A stretch of DNA of 36,304 nt from Bacillota bacterium (GTDB lineage: Bacteria > Bacillota > Clostridia > Tissierellales > MES13), in assembly GCA_009711765.1 (NCBI GenBank), contig VEND01000109.1:1-36304 (forward strand), given 5' to 3'. Shown piece after piece: positions 4,987 through 31,439 of this stretch (position 1 is its first letter; every line of letters begins with the position of its first letter). A program made the position numbers and the translations under genes. The notes beneath the pieces are model-generated. The model did not search any database and was not told the origin of the DNA. It saw nothing but the letters and a program-made list of their open reading frames with translations.

Positions 4987-5693
4987 TTACTGTATTACTC
5001 TTCTATCTATCTGTTTTAAGCTTCTTATAGCTTCCCATCTATGTTGCTTTACATTTGACATGCTATATTTTTTAAGTATATCCTGTACCTTATTACATTT
5101 AAAAGACTGAAATGCTCTTAACAACTTCCATATCATTAAATCATCATTTTTATATTTATTTAAAAGTTCAACGATATCATATTTATATGTAAAGTCATTC
5201 TCATAATATGATATATATCCAATAGCATCTATTGCCTCTAATATCTCAATATATTCTCCATGATATAAACATTTTCTAAGTGATTTTAATGCTGGCTTAC
5301 CTATATTACACATTGTTCTTGCAATTATATCTCTCGGCAAAGGATAATTTTTCTTTTTAAATTTTTATTTGGTAATGATTTATGTTGATTATTACCAACT
5401 TTACCTAAATAATTTATTAGTACTTTACTTGCTTCTTCACCAAAATATCCTATGGATTCTGATAGAGCTATTTTAGTATATAGTTTATCCTCAAAAATTA
5501 ATCTATTTATAAGAACATTCATAACTGTTTCTTCCCTATATTTCACTAATAACTTAGCATTTATTGTTCTATCAGTAGCCACTTTAGACTCTAATAATTC
5601 CAAAAGTTCTATTTTTGTGAAATCCTTATATTCTTCTAAATCATATTCTTCAATGTAACCTCGTTTTCTTAATTGTTTTATATTACTTTTCAT
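4987..5693 (-). pseudogene. HEAT-repeat protein, interrupted by a -1 shift
   Basis: Two overlapping frames encode one protein of about 235 aa. The first frame starts at ATG 5693 (MKSNIKQLRKRGYIEE), overlapping the stop of the upstream gene by 11 bp, and contains SESIGYFGEEASKVLINYLG. It ends prematurely near 5325. The second frame continues from about 5355 with KKKNYPLPRDIIARTMCNIG and then ALKSL and EAIRSLKQI repeats. The 'GNNQHK...YPLPRDI.ART.' sequence is continuous in related HEAT-repeat proteins, so the join is real. The switch occurs at T-TTA-AAA (5361-5355) followed by AAG, a classical -1 slippery heptamer. Equally, one A may be missing from the A-tract. HEAT repeats mediate protein-protein interaction; no specific role is known. 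Confidence 0.7.
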
Positions 5694-6186
5694 ATATCTC
5701 AGTAATTGAAAAACGTCGAGCATCTGGATTCTCAATGAAATTAATTTTAAATATAATTTTAGGTTTAATAGTTACTATATAACAAGACTCTTTATTATTA
5801 TAAGTATAGTTACTTATCTTCTTAGCTTTTTTTAAATTATTCAAATTGTTCTCAAAATATTTCTTACAATATTTAACACTATATTTGCTATAGTAAACAT
5901 CAGTAGGAGTTTTAAATAACCAAACTGTTTTATCAGGTAATTTAATCTTTAATTTTTCATTATTGTAAAATACAGTATGTTCTTTATTAGGAGATAAATA
6001 ACTCTTTATATCTAACTGAAATTCTTGATTAAAAAAATAAAAAGAGGAAAATATTATCAATGGAATAAATACTATTATCTCATATTTTAATATCTTTTTA
6101 TTTATACTTAATATTGTTAAAAGCAAAATTAACAATATAACTATTCCCATAAATACAAAGTAAAATATAGAACCTAATCCCCACAT
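5683..6186 (-). CDS. Hypothetical two-helix membrane protein
   Basis: This 167-aa protein is unrecognised. Two hydrophobic helices occupy residues about 4-27 (IFYFVFMGIVILLILLLTIL) and 33-52 (YEIIVFIPLIIFSSFYFF). An extracytoplasmic or cytoplasmic domain rich in Lys, Asn and Tyr follows, with a short WLFKTPTDVYYSKYS segment. TAAAGGAG precedes the ATG. Its 3' end overlaps the start of the HEAT-repeat gene, so the two are translationally coupled. Its promoter carries the same upstream box as the RRNPP regulator promoter, which suggests control by that regulator. Confidence 0.6.
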   Translation of the reverse strand: MWGLGSIFYFVFMGIVILLILLLTILSINKKILKYEIIVFIPLIIFSSFYFFNQEFQLDIKSYLSPNKEHTVFYNNEKLKIKLPDKTVWLFKTPTDVYYSKYSVKYCKKYFENNLNNLKKAKKISNYTYNNKESCYIVTIKPKIIFKINFIENPDARRFSITEIYEK

Positions 6187-6256
6187 AAATTATATCTCCT
6201 TTAAAAAAATTTAATTAAAAATATCTAAATGTTTTATAGTAACATATAATATCTTT

Positions 6257-6318
6257 ATTTTATCACATTGTTGTTTTTTGTAAATATTGGTTTTAAATGT
6301 TAGATGTTTTTTCCTCAT
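6257..6318 (-). promoter_or_regulatory. Promoter with RRNPP-linked upstream box (copy 2)
   Basis: On the minus strand, TTTACA (6284-6279), a 16-nt spacer and TAAAAT (6262-6257) form a promoter for the membrane/HEAT operon. Immediately upstream of -35 lies a ~35-bp block (6282-6318) that is nearly identical to the block above the regulator promoter at 15761-15799. It contains AGGAAAAAA, CTAACATTTAAAACC and AATATT. Spacer and downstream sequences differ between the two sites. That is expected of a protein binding site rather than a simple duplication. Confidence 0.6.
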
Positions 6319-6347
6319 TGTGAGTATATTTTTCAATAATTTTTTAT

Positions 6348-8632: not shown

Positions 8633-9238
8633 TAACTATAACAAATCAAGTGAATATACTAATACTATAGATAAAAACAAGGGGTGGTTTAATGGTTAGA
8701 AAATTTATTGTTTTTGTACTTGTTTCTTTACTCTTTCTGGATGTAAGACTAATGAATTAAAAACAGTAAGATTAGTAGAAGTTACCCATTCAGTATTTTA
8801 TGCTCCTCAATATGTAGCTATAACTCAAGGTTTTTTTAAAGAAGAGGGTATAGAAATTGAACTTACAAATGGAAAAGGTGCTGACAAATCAATGACAGCT
8901 GTTTTAAGTGACCAAGCAGATATTGGTTTTATGGGACCTGAAGCATCAGTTTATGTTTATAACCAAGGAAAAGAAGATTATGCTGTTAACTTTGCTCAAT
9001 TAACTCAAAAGGATGGTTCTTTCTTAGTAGGAAGAGAAAAAGATCCTGACTTTACATTTCATAAATTAAAAGGTAAAACTATTATTGGTGGACGAAAAGG
9101 CGGAATGCCTGAAATGACTTTAGAATATGTTCTAAAAAAGCATGATTTAATGCCTGGTAAAGATGTAAATGTAAGAACTGACATACAATTTGCAGTAATG
9201 GCAGGAGCTTTTACTGGTGGTGAAGGTGATTTTGTATA
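8633..9238 (+). pseudogene. Truncated duplicate of the NMT1/SsuA-like lipoprotein gene
   Basis: The leader, ribosome binding site and ATG (8692) are nearly identical to those of the intact gene at 16054. A 16-bp deletion inside the signal-peptide codons (after TTTCTTTACT) shifts the frame and removes the lipobox, giving a stop after about 22 codons. The original frame then continues open from 8892 (MTAVLSDQADIGFMGPE) to VMAGAFTGGEGDF. Similarity then ends abruptly, and a TAA follows at 9237. About 150 C-terminal residues are missing. The copy cannot make an exported binding protein. Confidence 0.9.
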
Positions 9239-9641
9239 ATCATTCTTATGATACCACCATTTTAATAATGATTTAAATCAATTACTCACTCTTCCATTCC
9301 AGTATACCTTTTTAAAATATTTATTTAATCTTTTAATTATTTTTTCTAGTATTTTTTTATGTTTGAAAAAAATTTATGTTACACATTAACTTTATTACTA
9401 ATATATACCTTTCCATGGGGAATAAAACTGAGAATAACCTTGATTAATATAAAAACGAAAAAATTTGGGCCTTTGACATCAAACAGTTTAGTTATAGATT
9501 AAATATTTAAAAAGTACTACTATAACTTTATTTTAAGTAAATTAGTAATCAATTATAACTGGTGTGAAATTTTTGTTAACATAGATGATAGATAAAAAAC
9601 TATCTACTTTTGTGAAATATATCTTATTTTCTCTAACCTTA
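9239..9641. other. Gene-free AT-rich interval
   Basis: I see no supported coding sequence, RNA gene or clear terminator in these 400 bp. The left border is the break point of the truncated lipoprotein gene copy. Confidence 0.4.
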
Positions 9642-11521: not shown

Positions 11522-12750
11522 GGCTCTTTGTCAAATGTTGTGAAAAATACTAAATACCTTAGGATTAAATAATTGCTTATTTTAAAAATATTTTAATGTG
11601 TACTGTAAATATATAATAAACCAGTATTATTAATATAGCATTGAAAATTTATTTCTTTTGATTTTCAACATACATAGCCAGTACTGGCTATGTATGTTGA
11701 GATTTAAACAATCTCTCAATCATTTGCTAATTGATTTTCTCAAATATATTACTAGTCTTAAATTAAATAATTCGCCTTTTAAATTTCTAAAACTGACATA
11801 AATATCCTTATTTTCATATTAAAGATATTTGGCACACCATAACCAATTCTTTTTACTAACTTTATTTTATTATTAATGCCTTCGGCAAAACCATTTGTTA
11901 TACCAGAATCAAAATAATTCAAATTTTTTTCCTCCCAACGCTTTATAGTCTTACAAGCTGCATAAAAAGGAGTAAGTTTGTAATTTGAGATTCTTTCATA
12001 CCAACAATTTAGTGCCTGTAATACATTTTTTTCATCTTGCATTTGTAATATATCTCTAAACTCTTCTTTTAACTCCCATGCCATTTCTAGTTCAGGACTT
12101 ATTTCTAAAGTTCTACAAGCTTTTGATATTCTTCATCAATTAAATCTTCACCCCGTTTTTTTAGAATAGTTTTACTCATATAGAATTTTTTTCTCGCAAC
12201 TTTATTTACCCTTTTTTGAACTTGTTTTCTTATTTCATCTAAGCTTTTATTGATTCTTGCTACTAAATGAAATTTATCAACTACTACTTTAGCCTTAGGA
12301 AATACGGCTTTTGCAACTGATTTATAAGGTCCCCACATGTTCATGCAAAAATATTTAATTTTAACTCTTTGTTCATCAGTCCAAGATTCAAAATACTTAA
12401 TTAGATCTTCTTTTTTTCTACTGATTAGAACATCTACAATTTTATTATTAATAGGATCAGATATAACAACACCATATTTATGGTGCTTATCAATAGAAAA
12501 TTCATCTTTACTAATAGCTTCAAGATTATTAATTCTTTCTTCAATCTCTTCATCGATAATTGGATCTAAGTATTTTAAGACTATATTTTCTATTGAAGTA
12601 TAACTTAATCCATTTTCTTTAGAAATATTTGTATAATCTCTGTATTTAGTTTTATATAACAGATTATAACCATATCGTTTTGTTTTTCTGAGTTCTTCAT
12701 ATAAAATACTTAATTCCTTAATTATTAATTGAATATATCTGTATTTATTG
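11522..12750 (-). mobile_element. ISL3-family insertion sequence remnant
   Basis: The right end is the typical ISL3 terminal sequence GGCTCTTTGTCAAATG at 11522. The minus-strand transposase reads IRRYGYN-like and YTSIENIVLKYLDP, then KDEFSIDKHHKYGVVISDP, MNMWGPYKSVAKAVFPKAKV, VDKFHLVARI, and after a shift near 12105-12125 AWELKEEF and GITNGFAEGINNKIKLVKRI, ending at 11779. These are the hallmark blocks of the ISL3 DDE domain. The N-terminal zinc-finger part and the left end are absent; the remnant runs into the SurA-like gene at about 12745. The frame switch fits loss of one A in an A-run. Confidence 0.85.
11665..11700. repeat. 36-bp perfect palindrome inside ISL3
   Basis: TCAACATACATAGCCAGT is followed directly by its exact reverse complement, giving 18-bp arms with no spacer. 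It lies between the ISL3 right end and the transposase stop codon. It could act as a bidirectional transcription stop or a recombination or cruciform site. Confidence 0.85.
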
Positions 12751-13375
12751 ATATTTCTTTATTTTTATTTTTTTTCTTTTTATTGCTATCTGTTCGTTAA
12801 TTTTCTTTTTTACTAATTTTTCTATTTGACTATGAGATTTATTTGGATATTTCTCCTTAATTGTAACTCTGTAAAGTCCTTTATACTTACCAATCATTAA
12901 AGCATTACGGTAAGCTTTAATGGTCTTTTTACTATTCCAAAATTCATCCTCACTTACCCCTAATGAAGTTAGATAAACGTTAAAATCTTCTTTTGATTTT
13001 TCATTTTCAGTTATTGTCTTCTTTATAGTATTAATATAATTATTAACTTCAATATCAGAAACTTTTATACCTTTTTCTTTACTCAATTCTCTTATAATAA
13101 CATTTTTAATAATAAACTCCTCTATATCTTTTCTTTTATTAGACCTTAGAAAAGCTCCTATTCTCTTGAATTGGTAAGAATTTATTTTTTCACTACCAAC
13201 TTCTAAAGTTATTTCTTGGTCTAATTCATTCTTCTTTATCTCATTTAATTTTTTTCCTATTTTTGCAAATACATTTTAAAGTCATCAAATCACTTTTATT
13301 TTCAGCATAACTTATTGTAGTTAATGCTATTATAATAAACAAAATTAAAGTTATTATATATTTTTTATTTTTCAT
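12745..13375 (-). pseudogene. SurA-N-like exported protein, frameshifted and ISL3-truncated
   Basis: The gene begins at ATG 13375 behind AAGGAGG with a signal peptide (MKNKKYIITLILFIIIALTT-ISYA). Within about 35 codons the frame is lost around 13290 (one extra base or two missing). The continuing frame reads KIGKKLNEIKKNELDQEITL, then FIIKNVIIRELSKEKGIKVS and TSLGVSEDEFW. This is the helical SurA N-terminal (chaperone) domain pattern seen in PrsA/SurA-like proteins, with no prolyl-isomerase domain. The 3' end lies at the ISL3 junction, so the natural C-terminus may be lost. It is the last gene behind the regulator-peptide cluster. Confidence 0.65.
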
Positions 13376-13420
13376 AATTATAAAACCTCCTTATTTTTAC
13401 TACAAAGGTGAATTTAATTA

Positions 13421-13993
13421 TCAAAAGTTAATATTAAGTTCAGTAGTAATTTGCATTGGAGCAACAGCATCATCAGCCCACCATGTAAATCCTGTTTCTA
13501 TTAATTCAGGGTAATCTATAGTTATAGAATCTTTGCATGCTCTATAACTAACTATGTCAGTTGGACTATAAATAATATCATTGGTTGGTTCATCATTAAA
13601 ATCTGCAAATGTAAATTTATCTTTAATATCATCATTTACCATAAATTTAGCTGAACTTAAACTAAAATAATGATAAAATGGTGCATTCACACCATTTTCG
13701 ATACTTGCATAAGCATCTTGTTCATTTGTTTCTATTTTTAAGTTTCCACAGACCTCCTTTGGTGTATATTTTATCGAATAAGTATAAACCAATTCTACAG
13801 GTACTGGTACAACTGCAACATCATTAGTCCAATAAACAATTTTCTTATATTCTCCTCTTTTATATTTTTCTTCCATTTCACCACCTACACTTGTTGGAAT
13901 AACATTAGAATCATCCATTGCAAAAACAGGTGCTGTAGTTATGTAACATAATATCACACCTATAATTATTAATATCCCAAAACTTTTTTTCAT
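13421..13993 (-). CDS. Secreted protein of unknown function
   Basis: This protein of about 190 aa starts at ATG 13993 (MKKSFGILIIIGVILCYITT, then APVFA as the likely cleavage site) with GAGGAGGG upstream. An alternative reading from 14062 adds 23 residues without a ribosome binding site and is rejected. The mature protein is acidic and aromatic (KIVYWTNDVAVVPVPVELVY, TGFTWWADDAVAPMQITTEL). It has two cysteines that could form a disulfide, and it looks beta-rich. No family is recognised. It lies downstream of the regulator, pro-peptide and short ORF on the same strand. It is a candidate output of that regulatory cassette. Confidence 0.6.
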   Translation of the reverse strand: MKKSFGILIIIGVILCYITTAPVFAMDDSNVIPTSVGGEMEEKYKRGEYKKIVYWTNDVAVVPVPVELVYTYSIKYTPKEVCGNLKIETNEQDAYASIENGVNAPFYHYFSLSSAKFMVNDDIKDKFTFADFNDEPTNDIIYSPTDIVSYRACKDSITIDYPELIETGFTWWADDAVAPMQITTELNINF

Positions 13994-14114
13994 TTTATAT
14001 CCCTCCTCGTATAATATAGTTAGAACATTTGATAGAAAATAAAATTCTCTCCTACCTAACATTCCTACGAAAATCAGTTCATTATTTATTTTACTTATTC
14101 TTAAGGAATGTTTA

Positions 14115-14180
14115 TTACATGCTTCCCGGCATAACCAGAGTTTTTAGGCTATTTCTATTTGGAGCCCTCACTAAATTCAT
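14115..14180 (-). CDS. 21-aa short ORF with strong ribosome binding site
   Basis: ATG at 14180 is preceded by AGAGGTGAGAACA, and the frame MNLVRAPNRNSLKTLVMPGS-M ends at TAA. The peptide is basic, has no signal sequence, and lies between the pro-peptide gene and the secreted-protein gene, co-directional with both. No family is recognised. It may be a real small peptide or a leader of the downstream gene; the only support is the Shine-Dalgarno site and the position. Confidence 0.4.
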   Translation of the reverse strand: MNLVRAPNRNSLKTLVMPGSM

Positions 14181-14207
14181 TGTTCTCACCTCTTTTAAAT
14201 AAAATAT

Positions 14208-14360
14208 TTAACCCCTTGTACCACCATCATCTATATTATTATTTTCATAAGTATCGGCAATCGTAGATAATGGACTTTTAATATTGAAACCACTACCTTG
14301 TGTTATAAATATATTAAATATTAAAACTACACTAACAGAAAACAAAATGAACTTTTTCAA
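14208..14360 (-). CDS. 50-aa exported pro-peptide (candidate RRNPP signal precursor)
   Basis: This gene begins 24 bp after the regulator's stop codon. I chose the TTG at 14360 because GGAGGG lies 6 nt upstream; the ATG at 14366 directly abuts the Shine-Dalgarno. The product has a Sec-type N-terminus (MKKFILFSVSVVLIFNIFIT) and a short hydrophilic tail, GFNIKSPLSTIADTYENNNI-DDGGTRG. This layout (a small exported peptide directly behind an HTH-TPR regulator) is that of PapR, NprX, Phr and clostridial Qsp pro-peptides. In such systems a C-terminal oligopeptide is released, re-imported by an oligopeptide permease and bound by the TPR domain. The role is inferred from context, not from sequence identity. 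Confidence 0.6.
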   Translation of the reverse strand: MKKFILFSVSVVLIFNIFITQGSGFNIKSPLSTIADTYENNNIDDGGTRG

Positions 14361-14383
14361 TGTCATCCCTCCTTTCTGATAAA

Positions 14384-15678
14384 TTAAGCTTTCATACATT
14401 CATAGGCTTTATTAAAACTTAATATCGCTTCTCTTTCGTTCTTTATTTCATTATAAGTATTTCCTAATTTCATATATGCTTTAATCAGTCTATCTTTCAT
14501 TTGAACTGACTTAAGTATTTCTATTTGTTTTATTAGTATATCAATAGCTTTATTATATTCACTATTTTCTAGATAATAATTGATGTAATGATCTAGACCA
14601 TCTATTAAACTTTTCTTTATATCATTTTCTTTACTAAAATTTATACCATCATCTAGATATTTTAATGCTTTTACCCTATCCCCAGTTTTTATGAAATACT
14701 TATAGAGTTCATAAAGTGTATTAGGTAAATCTTCTGATTTAAGCTCTTCTTTAATTCTTTTAGCTGTCATTAAATGGTTAAATGCCTTCTTATATTGCTT
14801 TGATTCTAAATATATATATCCTAAATTGTTTTCAATATATGCTTTAGTTCTAATGTTTTTCTGTTTTTCTTTCTTTTTAACATTTCATTCGCAGTATCTA
14901 AAAGTTCTTCTGCTTTTATATAATTTCCACCCTCTATAAATATAGATGCTTGTTTTACTAAACTCTCTGAATACCTACTACTATCTTCTAGCTTTCTATC
15001 TATATCACACACTTTTTCAGCATAATTAATAGCTTTTTCATTTTCACTCATTCTGTGATGGCAAGTTGATAAATTAAATAAAATATCACTTTCTAATTTA
15101 AGATTTTTATAGTCTAAAGACTCATATTGAAAGTAGGCTTGTCTATATTTCTGTAAAGCAATTTCATATAAACCCTGGTTTATATAAATGTTTCCTTCTT
15201 TTATATAAACTTTAATTATTCCTTCATTGTTATCTACTTTTAGCCAGTTATAAATACTTTTCTCTAAATACTCTAAAGCTTCTCTATACTTTTTTACTTT
15301 TATATAATACTTAGCTGTTAAATAATTAGTTTTTCCTAATGATTCTTTTAAATTATATTTCTTTGCTAATTTACTAATTTGTGAATATTTTTTTTGTATT
15401 TCTTTTATTTTTTCTAACCTTACTTCTACTTCCATTTCTTTTATTAGTAGTTTTATTATCCCTTTAGCTTGCTCTAGTTCTGTTTCTAATAAGTATTCTA
15501 ATTCAACTTCTAATTTTTCAGCTATATATTTTAATAGTTCAATATTAGGGCTAGCTTTATTGTTTTCTATGTAACTTAAATGTGCTTTTGATGCATATTC
15601 TCCACCAAGTTTACTTAAAGATAATCCTTTTTTGTTTCTTAGTCTTTTTATCTTTTCACCCACAGTTAATATCTCCAT
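14384..15678 (-). pseudogene. HTH-TPR regulator of RRNPP type, split by a -1 shift
   Basis: Two frames give one 431-aa protein. The first (ATG 15678, AAGGAG upstream) has an XRE-type helix-turn-helix at residues 5-62 (KIKRLRNKKGLSLSKLGGEY, LSYIENNKASPNIELLKYIA) and TPR helices from about 85 on. It stops at 14821. From about 14875 the -1 frame continues with AYIENNLGYIYLESKQYKKA and further TPRs to KLGNTYNEIKNEREAILSFN-KAYECMKA. The join is at an A5 tract (14878-14874) in TTA-AAA-AG. This size and domain order match NprR/Qsr-like peptide-responsive regulators. One missing A, a sequencing undercall or programmed slippage could each explain the break. A strong promoter lies upstream. Confidence 0.78.
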
Positions 15679-15735
15679 ATTTGAAACTCCTTGTTCATAT
15701 ATTTGTTTTTTTCGTTTAACTTATATATTAACTTA

Positions 15736-15799
15736 ATTATATTAAGCTGTATATTTTTGTCAATATTGGTTTTAGATGTTAGGTATTTTTTCCTATTTT
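15736..15799 (-). promoter_or_regulatory. Regulator promoter with conserved upstream box (copy 1)
   Basis: On the minus strand, TTGACA (15763-15758), 16 nt and TATAAT (15741-15736) form a near-consensus sigma-A promoter. Directly upstream lies the ~35-bp box shared with 6282-6318, with near direct repeats CTAACAT and CTAAAAC. The position just above -35 suits an activator or autoregulator. Confidence 0.65.
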
Positions 15800-16053
15800 T
15801 GGTTTGTTTTTAGTTTTTCTTTTTATTGTTTTAACTACATCTATTATTTCTAATAAATTATAACTTAGCTGTTCTTTGAAAAATAAAAAAGAACCTGTTT
15901 TCAATAGTTTTGTATAGTATGTTACAAAAAAAGTTATTAAGCCTTCTATTCAACTTTAAAGAACTTGAGTACTTTTGATAAAGAAGCATATCTGTAACCA
16001 TAACAAATCAAGTGAATATACTAATATTATAGATAAAAACAAGGGGTGGTTTA
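15800..16053. other. Intergenic region upstream of the SBP gene
   Basis: Part of the divergent region between the regulator and the lipoprotein gene. From about 15995 the sequence (AACAAATCAAGTGAATATAC and following) is duplicated at 8640 together with the AAGGGGTGG ribosome binding site. No clear -35/-10 pair could be assigned for the plus strand. Confidence 0.4.
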
Positions 16054-17055
16054 ATGGTTAGAAAATTTATTGTTTTTGTACTTGTTTCTTTACTTATTGT
16101 TACAATGTTTCTTTCTGGATGTAAGACTAATGAATTAAAAACAGTAAGATTAGTAGAAGTTACCCATTCAGTATTTTATGCTCCTCAATATGTAGCTATA
16201 ACTCAAGGCTTTTTTAAAGAAGAGGGTATAGAAATTGAACTTACAAATGGAAAAGGTGCTGACAAATCAATGACAGCTGTTTTAAGTGATCAAGCAGATA
16301 TTGGTTTTATGGGACCTGAAGCATCAGTTTACGTTTATAATCAAGGAAAAGAAGATTATGCTGTTAACTTCGCTCAATTAACTCAAAAGGACGGTTCTTT
16401 CTTAGTAGGAAGACAAAAAGATCCTAACTTTACCTTTGATAAATTAAAAGGTAAAACTATTATTGGTGGACGTAAAGGCGGTATGCCTGAAATGACTTTA
16501 GAATATGTTCTAAAAAAGCATGATTTAATGCCTGGTAAAGATGTAAATGTAAGAACTGACATACAATTTGCAGTAATGGCAGGAGCTTTCACCGGTGGCG
16601 AAGGCGATTATGTAACACTATTTGAGCCAACCGCTTCATTACTAGAAAAAGAGGGAAAAGGCTATATTGTTGCTTCCATTGGAAAAGAAGGAGGATATAT
16701 ACCTTATACATGTTATAGTGCTAAAAAAAGCTATATAGAAGAAAATCCTGAGATTATACAGGGATATACCAATGCAATCTATAAGGGTATGCTTTGGGTT
16801 CAGAATCATACAGCTGAGGAAATAGCTGAAGCTATACAGCCACAGTTTCCTGATGCAGATAAGGATATTTTGGTTACTTTAATCAATAGATATAGAGACC
16901 AGGATACTTGGAGACCAGATCCTGTTCTTACTGAAAAAGGCTTAAATCATATGATGGAAATAATGGAGCTAGCAGGTGAACTTGAGGATAGAGCTCCTTA
17001 TGAAAAGATAGTAACTACGGAATTTGCTAAGAAAGCTATGGAAAGTATTAAGTAA
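16054..17055 (+). CDS. ABC transporter substrate-binding lipoprotein (NMT1/SsuA-like)
   Basis: This 333-aa lipoprotein has a signal peptide with lipobox FLSGC (Cys23). The NMT1/SsuA-like fold follows: VTHSVFYAPQYVAITQGFFK, EEGIEIELTNGKGADKSMTA, DQADIGFMGPEAS, KGKTIIGGRKGGMPEMTLEY and GEGDYVTLFEPTAS. Relatives bind nitrate, sulfonates, taurine or thiamine-pyrimidine precursors at the outer face of the membrane. No permease or ATPase gene is adjacent, so it is an orphan binding protein here and its ligand is unknown. AAGGGGTGG precedes the ATG, and an intrinsic terminator follows. Two damaged copies lie 7-10 kb upstream. Confidence 0.88.
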   Translation: MVRKFIVFVLVSLLIVTMFLSGCKTNELKTVRLVEVTHSVFYAPQYVAITQGFFKEEGIEIELTNGKGADKSMTAVLSDQADIGFMGPEASVYVYNQGKEDYAVNFAQLTQKDGSFLVGRQKDPNFTFDKLKGKTIIGGRKGGMPEMTLEYVLKKHDLMPGKDVNVRTDIQFAVMAGAFTGGEGDYVTLFEPTASLLEKEGKGYIVASIGKEGGYIPYTCYSAKKSYIEENPEIIQGYTNAIYKGMLWVQNHTAEEIAEAIQPQFPDADKDILVTLINRYRDQDTWRPDPVLTEKGLNHMMEIMELAGELEDRAPYEKIVTTEFAKKAMESIK

Positions 17056-31070: not shown

Positions 31071-31439
31071 TTACTGCAGTAATAGTATTTCACCACCAAG
31101 CACTATTGCCACAATATTTCCTACAGTTTCACAAAGCTCAGCAAAGGATTCTGCTGTATTATATGCTACATGAGAGCTAAACAAAACATTATCCATCTTA
31201 CACAACTCATTATCTACATCCTTAAATGCTCCTTCTTCAAACGTATCAAGACCTGCAGCAGCTACCTTACCTGATTTAAGAGTATCTATAAGTGCAGCCT
31301 CCTTAATCATAGGTTCACGTGCGGTATTAATAATAATTGCTCCATCCTTGATACGTGCAAAAGCATCCTCAGCAATCATATGCTAGCTTTGATCATTAAG
31401 AGGAAGATTAAGAAAAATAATATCGGATTTCTCTATAAC
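31071..31439 (-). pseudogene. D-2-hydroxyacid dehydrogenase, C-terminal remnant
   Basis: The frame VIEKSDIIFLNLPLNDQS is followed by an in-frame TAG (31385-31383) and then HMIAEDAFARIKDGAIIINT, AREPMIKEAALIDTLKSGKV-AAAGLDTFEEG. This is the NAD-binding and catalytic part of D-isomer-specific 2-hydroxyacid dehydrogenases (Leu-Pro-Leu, 'AR..-D..AL', 'GLD.FE'). The catalytic-domain N-terminus and GxGxxG loop are missing, and the catalytic His region is replaced by SSHVAYNTAES. It is non-functional in this form. Confidence 0.82.

Follow-up and report, generated by a model that had tools for sequence, protein, structure and literature searches.

A candidate RRNPP-type receptor-pheromone cassette, partly decayed in the copy studied, with related promoters ahead of exported-protein genes

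The window analysed here is a stretch of 36,304 nucleotides (nt) from a Bacillota bacterium (assembly GCA_009711765.1, contig VEND01000109.1, positions 1 to 36,304). On its minus strand, from about 15.7 down to 12.7 kb, it carries a regulator gene, a pro-peptide gene, a short open reading frame (ORF), a gene for an exported protein and a SurA-like gene, in that order (Table 1). A preliminary description, made from the sequence alone, had interpreted this gene set as a quorum-sensing cassette of the RRNPP type that has a new pro-peptide and secreted proteins linked to it. The order and common direction of the genes are as it described, and the conserved pairing of regulator and peptide, the predicted fold and a shared promoter speak for the interpretation, but in this assembly frameshifts interrupt both the regulator gene and the SurA-like gene. 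Likewise, the secreted protein and the SurA-like exported protein expected downstream are both present, although the SurA-like gene is split between two frames.

Table 1. Positions of the cassette features and of the second promoter copy in the window
Position	Strand	Feature	Basis or remark
15690..15811	-	Regulator promoter block: TTGACA, 16 bp, TATAAT, then AAGTTAA	Sequence conservation among regulator genes and satellites
14821..15678	-	N-terminal 285 aa of the regulator, ending at the frameshift stop, with XRE-type HTH and first TPRs	ORF, Pfam, orthologues
14384..14884	-	Regulator, C-terminal TPR part, other frame	Open frame; intact orthologues
14208..14360	-	Pro-peptide, 50 aa: Lys-Lys and hydrophobic leader, C-terminus NNNIDDGGTRG	Conserved C-terminus beside orthologous regulators or relics
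14089..14196	-	Degraded leader element with the "21-aa ORF": ribosome-binding site, ATG, 5' inverted-repeat arm	Covariance model match, 55.7 bits
13421..13993	-	Exported protein, 190 aa, no known family	Signal peptide recognised in the sequence itself
13241..13375	-	SurA-like exported protein, signal-peptide part (split gene)	ORF
12745..13272	-	SurA-like protein, remainder, other frame, SurA_N_3 match	Open frame, profile match
6244..6333	-	Second copy of the promoter block, 77% identical	BLAST, E 1.3e-11
5683..6186	-	167-aa protein, membrane or exported, whose gene immediately follows the second promoter copy	Candidate regulon member

The regulator had been described as a single ORF of 431 amino acids (aa) with a helix-turn-helix (HTH) and tetratricopeptide repeats (TPRs). 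Pfam does find an XRE-type HTH and TPRs, but the frame that begins at ATG 15678 stops at 14821, and the gene is divided by a frameshift into 285 aa and a 166-aa open frame, the two frames meeting at an A-run near 14875-14879. Intact single-ORF orthologues of 427-433 aa, five in all, were identified in four other genomes of the order; the nearest are 40-52% identical to the window's regulator and form one well-supported clade with it (100/99). A programmed frameshift was considered and rejected, as the slip site is a poor classic heptamer and the orthologues are unbroken there. A size range of 250-500 aa has been given for RRNPP receptors (PMC10075063). The intact orthologues, with their TPRs and the optional N-terminal HTH, conform to that class; the copy in the window is frameshifted.

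In the model of the intact orthologue from genome G026 (L049; mean predicted local distance difference test score, pLDDT, 94.4), five N-terminal helices are followed by nine TPR helix pairs. The best RRNPP match found by Foldseek among solved structures was apo NprR (5dbk_A, TMt 0.71), followed by RapF, RapI and Rap-Phr complexes. Furthermore, the regulator profile matched the TPRs of Rap proteins and the HTHs of SinR, ComR and Rgg, where we take structure 4yv6 to be Rgg. The nearest named regulator found was RstA, with 24.7% identity over 99%. Searches of named genome contigs returned only partial, weak and unusable matches in Sporosarcina and Enterococcus, and no regulator relatives were found in viral contigs or phage records. 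Neither phage nor plasmid ancestry of the receptor was supported. Distant relatives in one Clostridia family (f58, L069-L085) occur as tandem HTH-TPR gene pairs, with no obvious pro-peptide gene.

The pro-peptide ORF starts at TTG 14360 behind AAGGAGG and stops at 14208. The peptide had been predicted correctly in length and ending, and the gap that separates it from the regulator measures 23 bp rather than the 24 bp claimed. Its 50 aa and 23 bp lie within the ranges used for RRNPP adjacency (10-100 aa, -60 to 400 bp), as do the 54 aa and 16 bp of the ORF behind the intact orthologous regulator in G026, which ends in SDDDGGIRG. Both pro-peptides have a putative export leader, judged by eye, with Lys-Lys and a long hydrophobic stretch. 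The preliminary description had proposed a search for orthologous regulator-peptide pairs, and besides the intact pair in G026 this search yielded a variant in G043, where the sequence behind the regulator ends in NNDNGRVRG (variant DNGRVRG), and relics elsewhere. The hydrophilic C-terminus of the pro-peptide is conserved while the remainder diverges.

The pattern DDGGxRG followed by a stop codon occurs in 4 of the 249 genomes of the order and its reversed control in none, so that by sequence count the pattern is in excess of chance. The four matches are those in the window, in G026, in the sister species (G001, a relic) and in G049:C140, where the start of the regulator is fused to a pro-peptide end, ...ELADEDDGGLRG. 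Looser searches and reading of the flanks added the endings ...YELDDGELRG (G024), ...YELDDEDHGGLRG (G011) and DGGLRG (G011:C234). All of these peptides adjoin a regulator, a piece of a regulator or a leader element, except in G024, where the peptide relic alone was recognised. Conserved pairing together with a conserved peptide C-terminus, as in RRNPP systems, was accordingly found in the window, G026 and G043, and in relic form in G001, G049, G011 and G024; intact pairs are few. The contig in G049 (L063) carries two cassette relics, both of which join the regulator start to the pro-peptide end, and their upstream regions are 92% identical over 222 bp. In the sister species, the pro-peptide relic is located just behind one of two tandem agr-like blocks, each with a LytTR regulator, an AgrB-like protein and a histidine kinase (L061, G001:C5:28000-42000).

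Behind the pro-peptide, the preliminary description had noted an ORF of 21 aa. The short ORF is there, but it belongs to the degraded local copy of a leader element that occurs repeatedly and measures about 105 nt. The element consists of a ribosome-binding site, an ATG with a short ORF, and an inverted repeat (AGCCT..AACTC / GAGTT..AGGCT around TGC/GCA). Of 248 genomes of the order, 13 gave matches to a covariance model of the element (E <= 0.01); a few of these are weak and probably due to chance, and the element is counted in about ten genomes. G011 has eight of the matches, and G049 has three. The low-scoring matches in G138 and similar cases resemble ordinary hairpins and were set aside. 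The window's own copy scores weakly because its 3' arm is degraded, and it was the only match in a class-wide sample searched under stricter filters. For 13 of the 17 good copies, the distance from the start of the element to the start of a gene for an exported or membrane protein is 165-320 bp.

A conserved small protein is not the favoured explanation for the leader, since most copies have an interrupted reading frame; the short peptide had no match in Pfam, plasmids or phages. In the hairpin, 90% of the cells pair, compared with 16-39% in slid versions, and compensatory change is almost nil. An Rfam scan of 12700-16100 returned sub-threshold chance matches alone. The alignment points to a conserved inverted repeat that could act as DNA or RNA, and a folded RNA is possible.

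The promoter block upstream of the regulator recurs elsewhere. In addition to the second copy in the window, another copy in the same genome (C72:8861-8942, E 1.4e-17) precedes the gene for a lipoprotein of 268 aa that matches Peptidase_MA_2 weakly, and the sister species has counterparts to all three promoter sites. Contig C34 of G026 carries an operon for exported proteins in which the leader element is present and the regulator and peptide are absent, and over 139 bp its promoter shares 72% identity with the promoter of the intact cassette in that genome. Promoter pairs similar to this case were identified in G049 and G011. Parallel duplication of the promoter before genes for exported or membrane proteins is thereby seen in G001, G026, G049 and G011, and in several copies nothing of the regulator is left beyond its first residues, which are fused to the pro-peptide end or to the leader. 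The secreted products of these satellite genes include an amidase, a subtilase, a matrixin-like protein and a peptidase-MA-like lipoprotein. The satellites vary: some leader copies have no recognisable promoter match, and both satellites in the window's genome are without a leader.

The simplest history for these arrangements would be that the operon was duplicated and that the receptor and pheromone genes were then lost from most copies, leaving the promoter, the leader and the secreted-protein gene. We tentatively suggest, as an idea that falls somewhat short of probable, that the cassette belongs to a new RRNPP subfamily, with a receptor-pheromone operon that has been the template for its own regulon: the promoter, often with the leader, would be copied before secreted-protein genes, and the receptor and pheromone genes deleted from the copies. 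If so, a single remaining receptor could govern dispersed secreted enzymes.

We consider it fairly probable that the cassette is an RRNPP-type receptor-pheromone system, related to the orphan RstA and restricted to some bacteria that, as we infer the order, are Tissierellales-like. The receptor would be the regulator with its HTH and nine TPRs, and the adjacent gene would encode a pro-peptide exported by the Sec pathway. By analogy with other RRNPP systems, the pro-peptide would be secreted and trimmed to its conserved C-terminal segment, the likely pheromone being the last 7-11 residues with the consensus DxGxxRG. The trimmed peptide would be taken up again through an oligopeptide permease (Opp) and bound in the TPR groove, thereby altering the action or DNA binding of the receptor at the shared promoter block. 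Whether the receptor would activate or repress is likewise a matter of analogy, and an action through an inverted repeat like that of RstA is a plausible model for the promoter block. Seven Opp-type binding proteins are encoded in the genome.

Several observations weigh against this interpretation. The case is one of sequences and a structural model, from which the pairing of regulator and peptide, the motif, the predicted fold, the promoter sharing and the exported genes that follow the promoter can be read; signalling and peptide binding would follow by analogy. The fold by itself is unspecific, because eukaryotic and designed, unrelated TPR proteins score similarly to the RRNPP matches in Foldseek, and Opp-type proteins are common and equally unspecific. 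In G043, the leader of the pro-peptide is out of frame with its C-terminus; the offset is of one base, at a run of eight A (G043:C3, L048), and may reflect phase variation, decay or a sequencing error. The regulator is frameshifted in the window and most relatives carry only relics; judged from the genomes compared, the cassette pair is rare in relatives and mostly decayed there. Lastly, the orthologous regulators L047, L050 and G049:C27 have no adjacent pro-peptide, so that the receptor family is able to exist peptide-free. Two of these, L047 (G010:C87) and L050 (G026:C68), from two genera, adjoin a cca-like tRNA nucleotidyltransferase gene.

Since the orthologues are unbroken, the breaks in the window represent either real decay or errors in the draft assembly. 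Both coincide with A-runs, and the frames on either side stay open and resemble the orthologues, as would be expected if the local copy were wholly intact and the two frameshifts had arisen during assembly of the draft genome. We regard this as possible but doubtful: the regulator is lost at the same place in the sister species, the leader element in the window is degraded and the genes that neighbour the cassette are fragments, all of which makes real decay plausible. Our preferred interpretation, in which we have reasonable confidence, is that the cassette is real and its local copy partly decayed, and the window copy is probably non-functional unless the frameshift in the regulator is an assembly error.

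It has also to be considered that the regulator could be an RstA-like orphan, deaf to the adjacent peptide, and that the peptide could be an effector, bacteriocin-like or located at the surface, co-expressed with the secreted proteins. The cca-adjoining orthologues without a peptide, the absence of an adjacent peptide gene from RstA and the fact that the remaining downstream products are all exported would fit this idea, which we nevertheless find unlikely, given that the peptide gene comes immediately after the regulator gene, which is the arrangement of RRNPP pairs, and that the peptide's hydrophilic C-terminus is conserved and the rest divergent, a pheromone-like pattern. Still less probable is that the cassette and leader form a small mobile or repeat element with internally deleted, non-autonomous derivatives, as the multiple copies in G011 and G049, the deletions that fuse the regulator start to the peptide end and the conserved inverted repeat might suggest, for no recombinase or flanking repeats were recognised, no copies were found in phage and viral collections, and the copies usually head genes for exported proteins, which fits gene duplication under a shared promoter.

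Other parts of the window also contain gene fragments. The 115-aa ORF at 8892-9239 is a fragment, nearly identical in sequence, of the substrate-binding lipoprotein whose gene lies at 16054-17055, and a partial duplication therefore flanks the cassette region. Close to the cassette, the ORF at 11779-12084 (minus strand) resembles the C-terminal fragment of a transposase, presumably of the ISL3 type. Two overlapping ORFs in different frames at 4987-5735 (minus strand) appear to be pieces of a single HEAT-like repeat protein divided by a frameshift, and a 102-aa ORF at 31071-31379 (minus strand) resembles a fragment of a larger dehydrogenase, which we take to be of the D-isomer type.

Large surveys of complete genomes already count candidate RRNPP pairs in the thousands (PMC10075063), and a new pair is therefore not unusual by itself. 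However, the DDGGxRG motif, leader element and promoter copying were not found described in the literature examined, the supplements of the surveys being outside the search, and the combination of a DDGGxRG-type peptide with a copied promoter and leader appears to be new within the known RRNPP systems. If our interpretation is correct, the cassette would provide a peptide-linked branch, with a testable peptide motif, next to the orphan RstA-like receptors of unknown ligand. It would also illustrate a simple route for the growth of a quorum-sensing regulon, through copying of the receptor's promoter and leader onto new secreted-protein genes, and the relics across several genomes may reveal the order of events.

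Among the known systems, the AimR-AimP (arbitrium) pairs of Bacillus phages have nine-TPR receptors and short peptides with an -xRG end in common with the cassette, a likeness that is one of resemblance only. AimP peptides end in -x-R-G-(A), whereas the peptide described here has no terminal Ala, the regulator has a clear XRE HTH and the system is chromosomal; arbitrium is carried by temperate phages, and the searches of viral contigs and phage records mentioned above revealed no relatives. In Qsr-Qsp of Clostridium acetobutylicum, a clostridial HTH-TPR regulator is likewise followed by a pro-peptide gene; Qsp pro-peptides are 39-50 aa long and the peptides conserve Leu, Pro and Trp (PMC7376267). 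That pattern of conservation near the C-terminus differs from the one here, where the motif is DxGxxRG. NprR-NprX of the Bacillus cereus group resembles the cassette in its HTH and nine TPRs, in the peptide gene directly downstream and in extracellular degradative enzymes as the likely output, but NprR is only about 15% identical to the modelled orthologue in the structure alignment. We also take the NprX peptide to differ from the one described here, and we know of no leader element or copied promoters for NprR. The likeness to RstA of Clostridioides difficile, an HTH-TPR regulator of similar length, is the one noted above in the sequence comparison. RstA has been described as an orphan RRNPP regulator without an adjacent peptide gene, and its repression of its own promoter involves an inverted repeat that overlaps the -10 box (PMC6414698). 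The cassette differs from it in the conserved pro-peptide, adjacent to the regulator in the window, G026 and G043, and in the leader element and the exported genes that follow.

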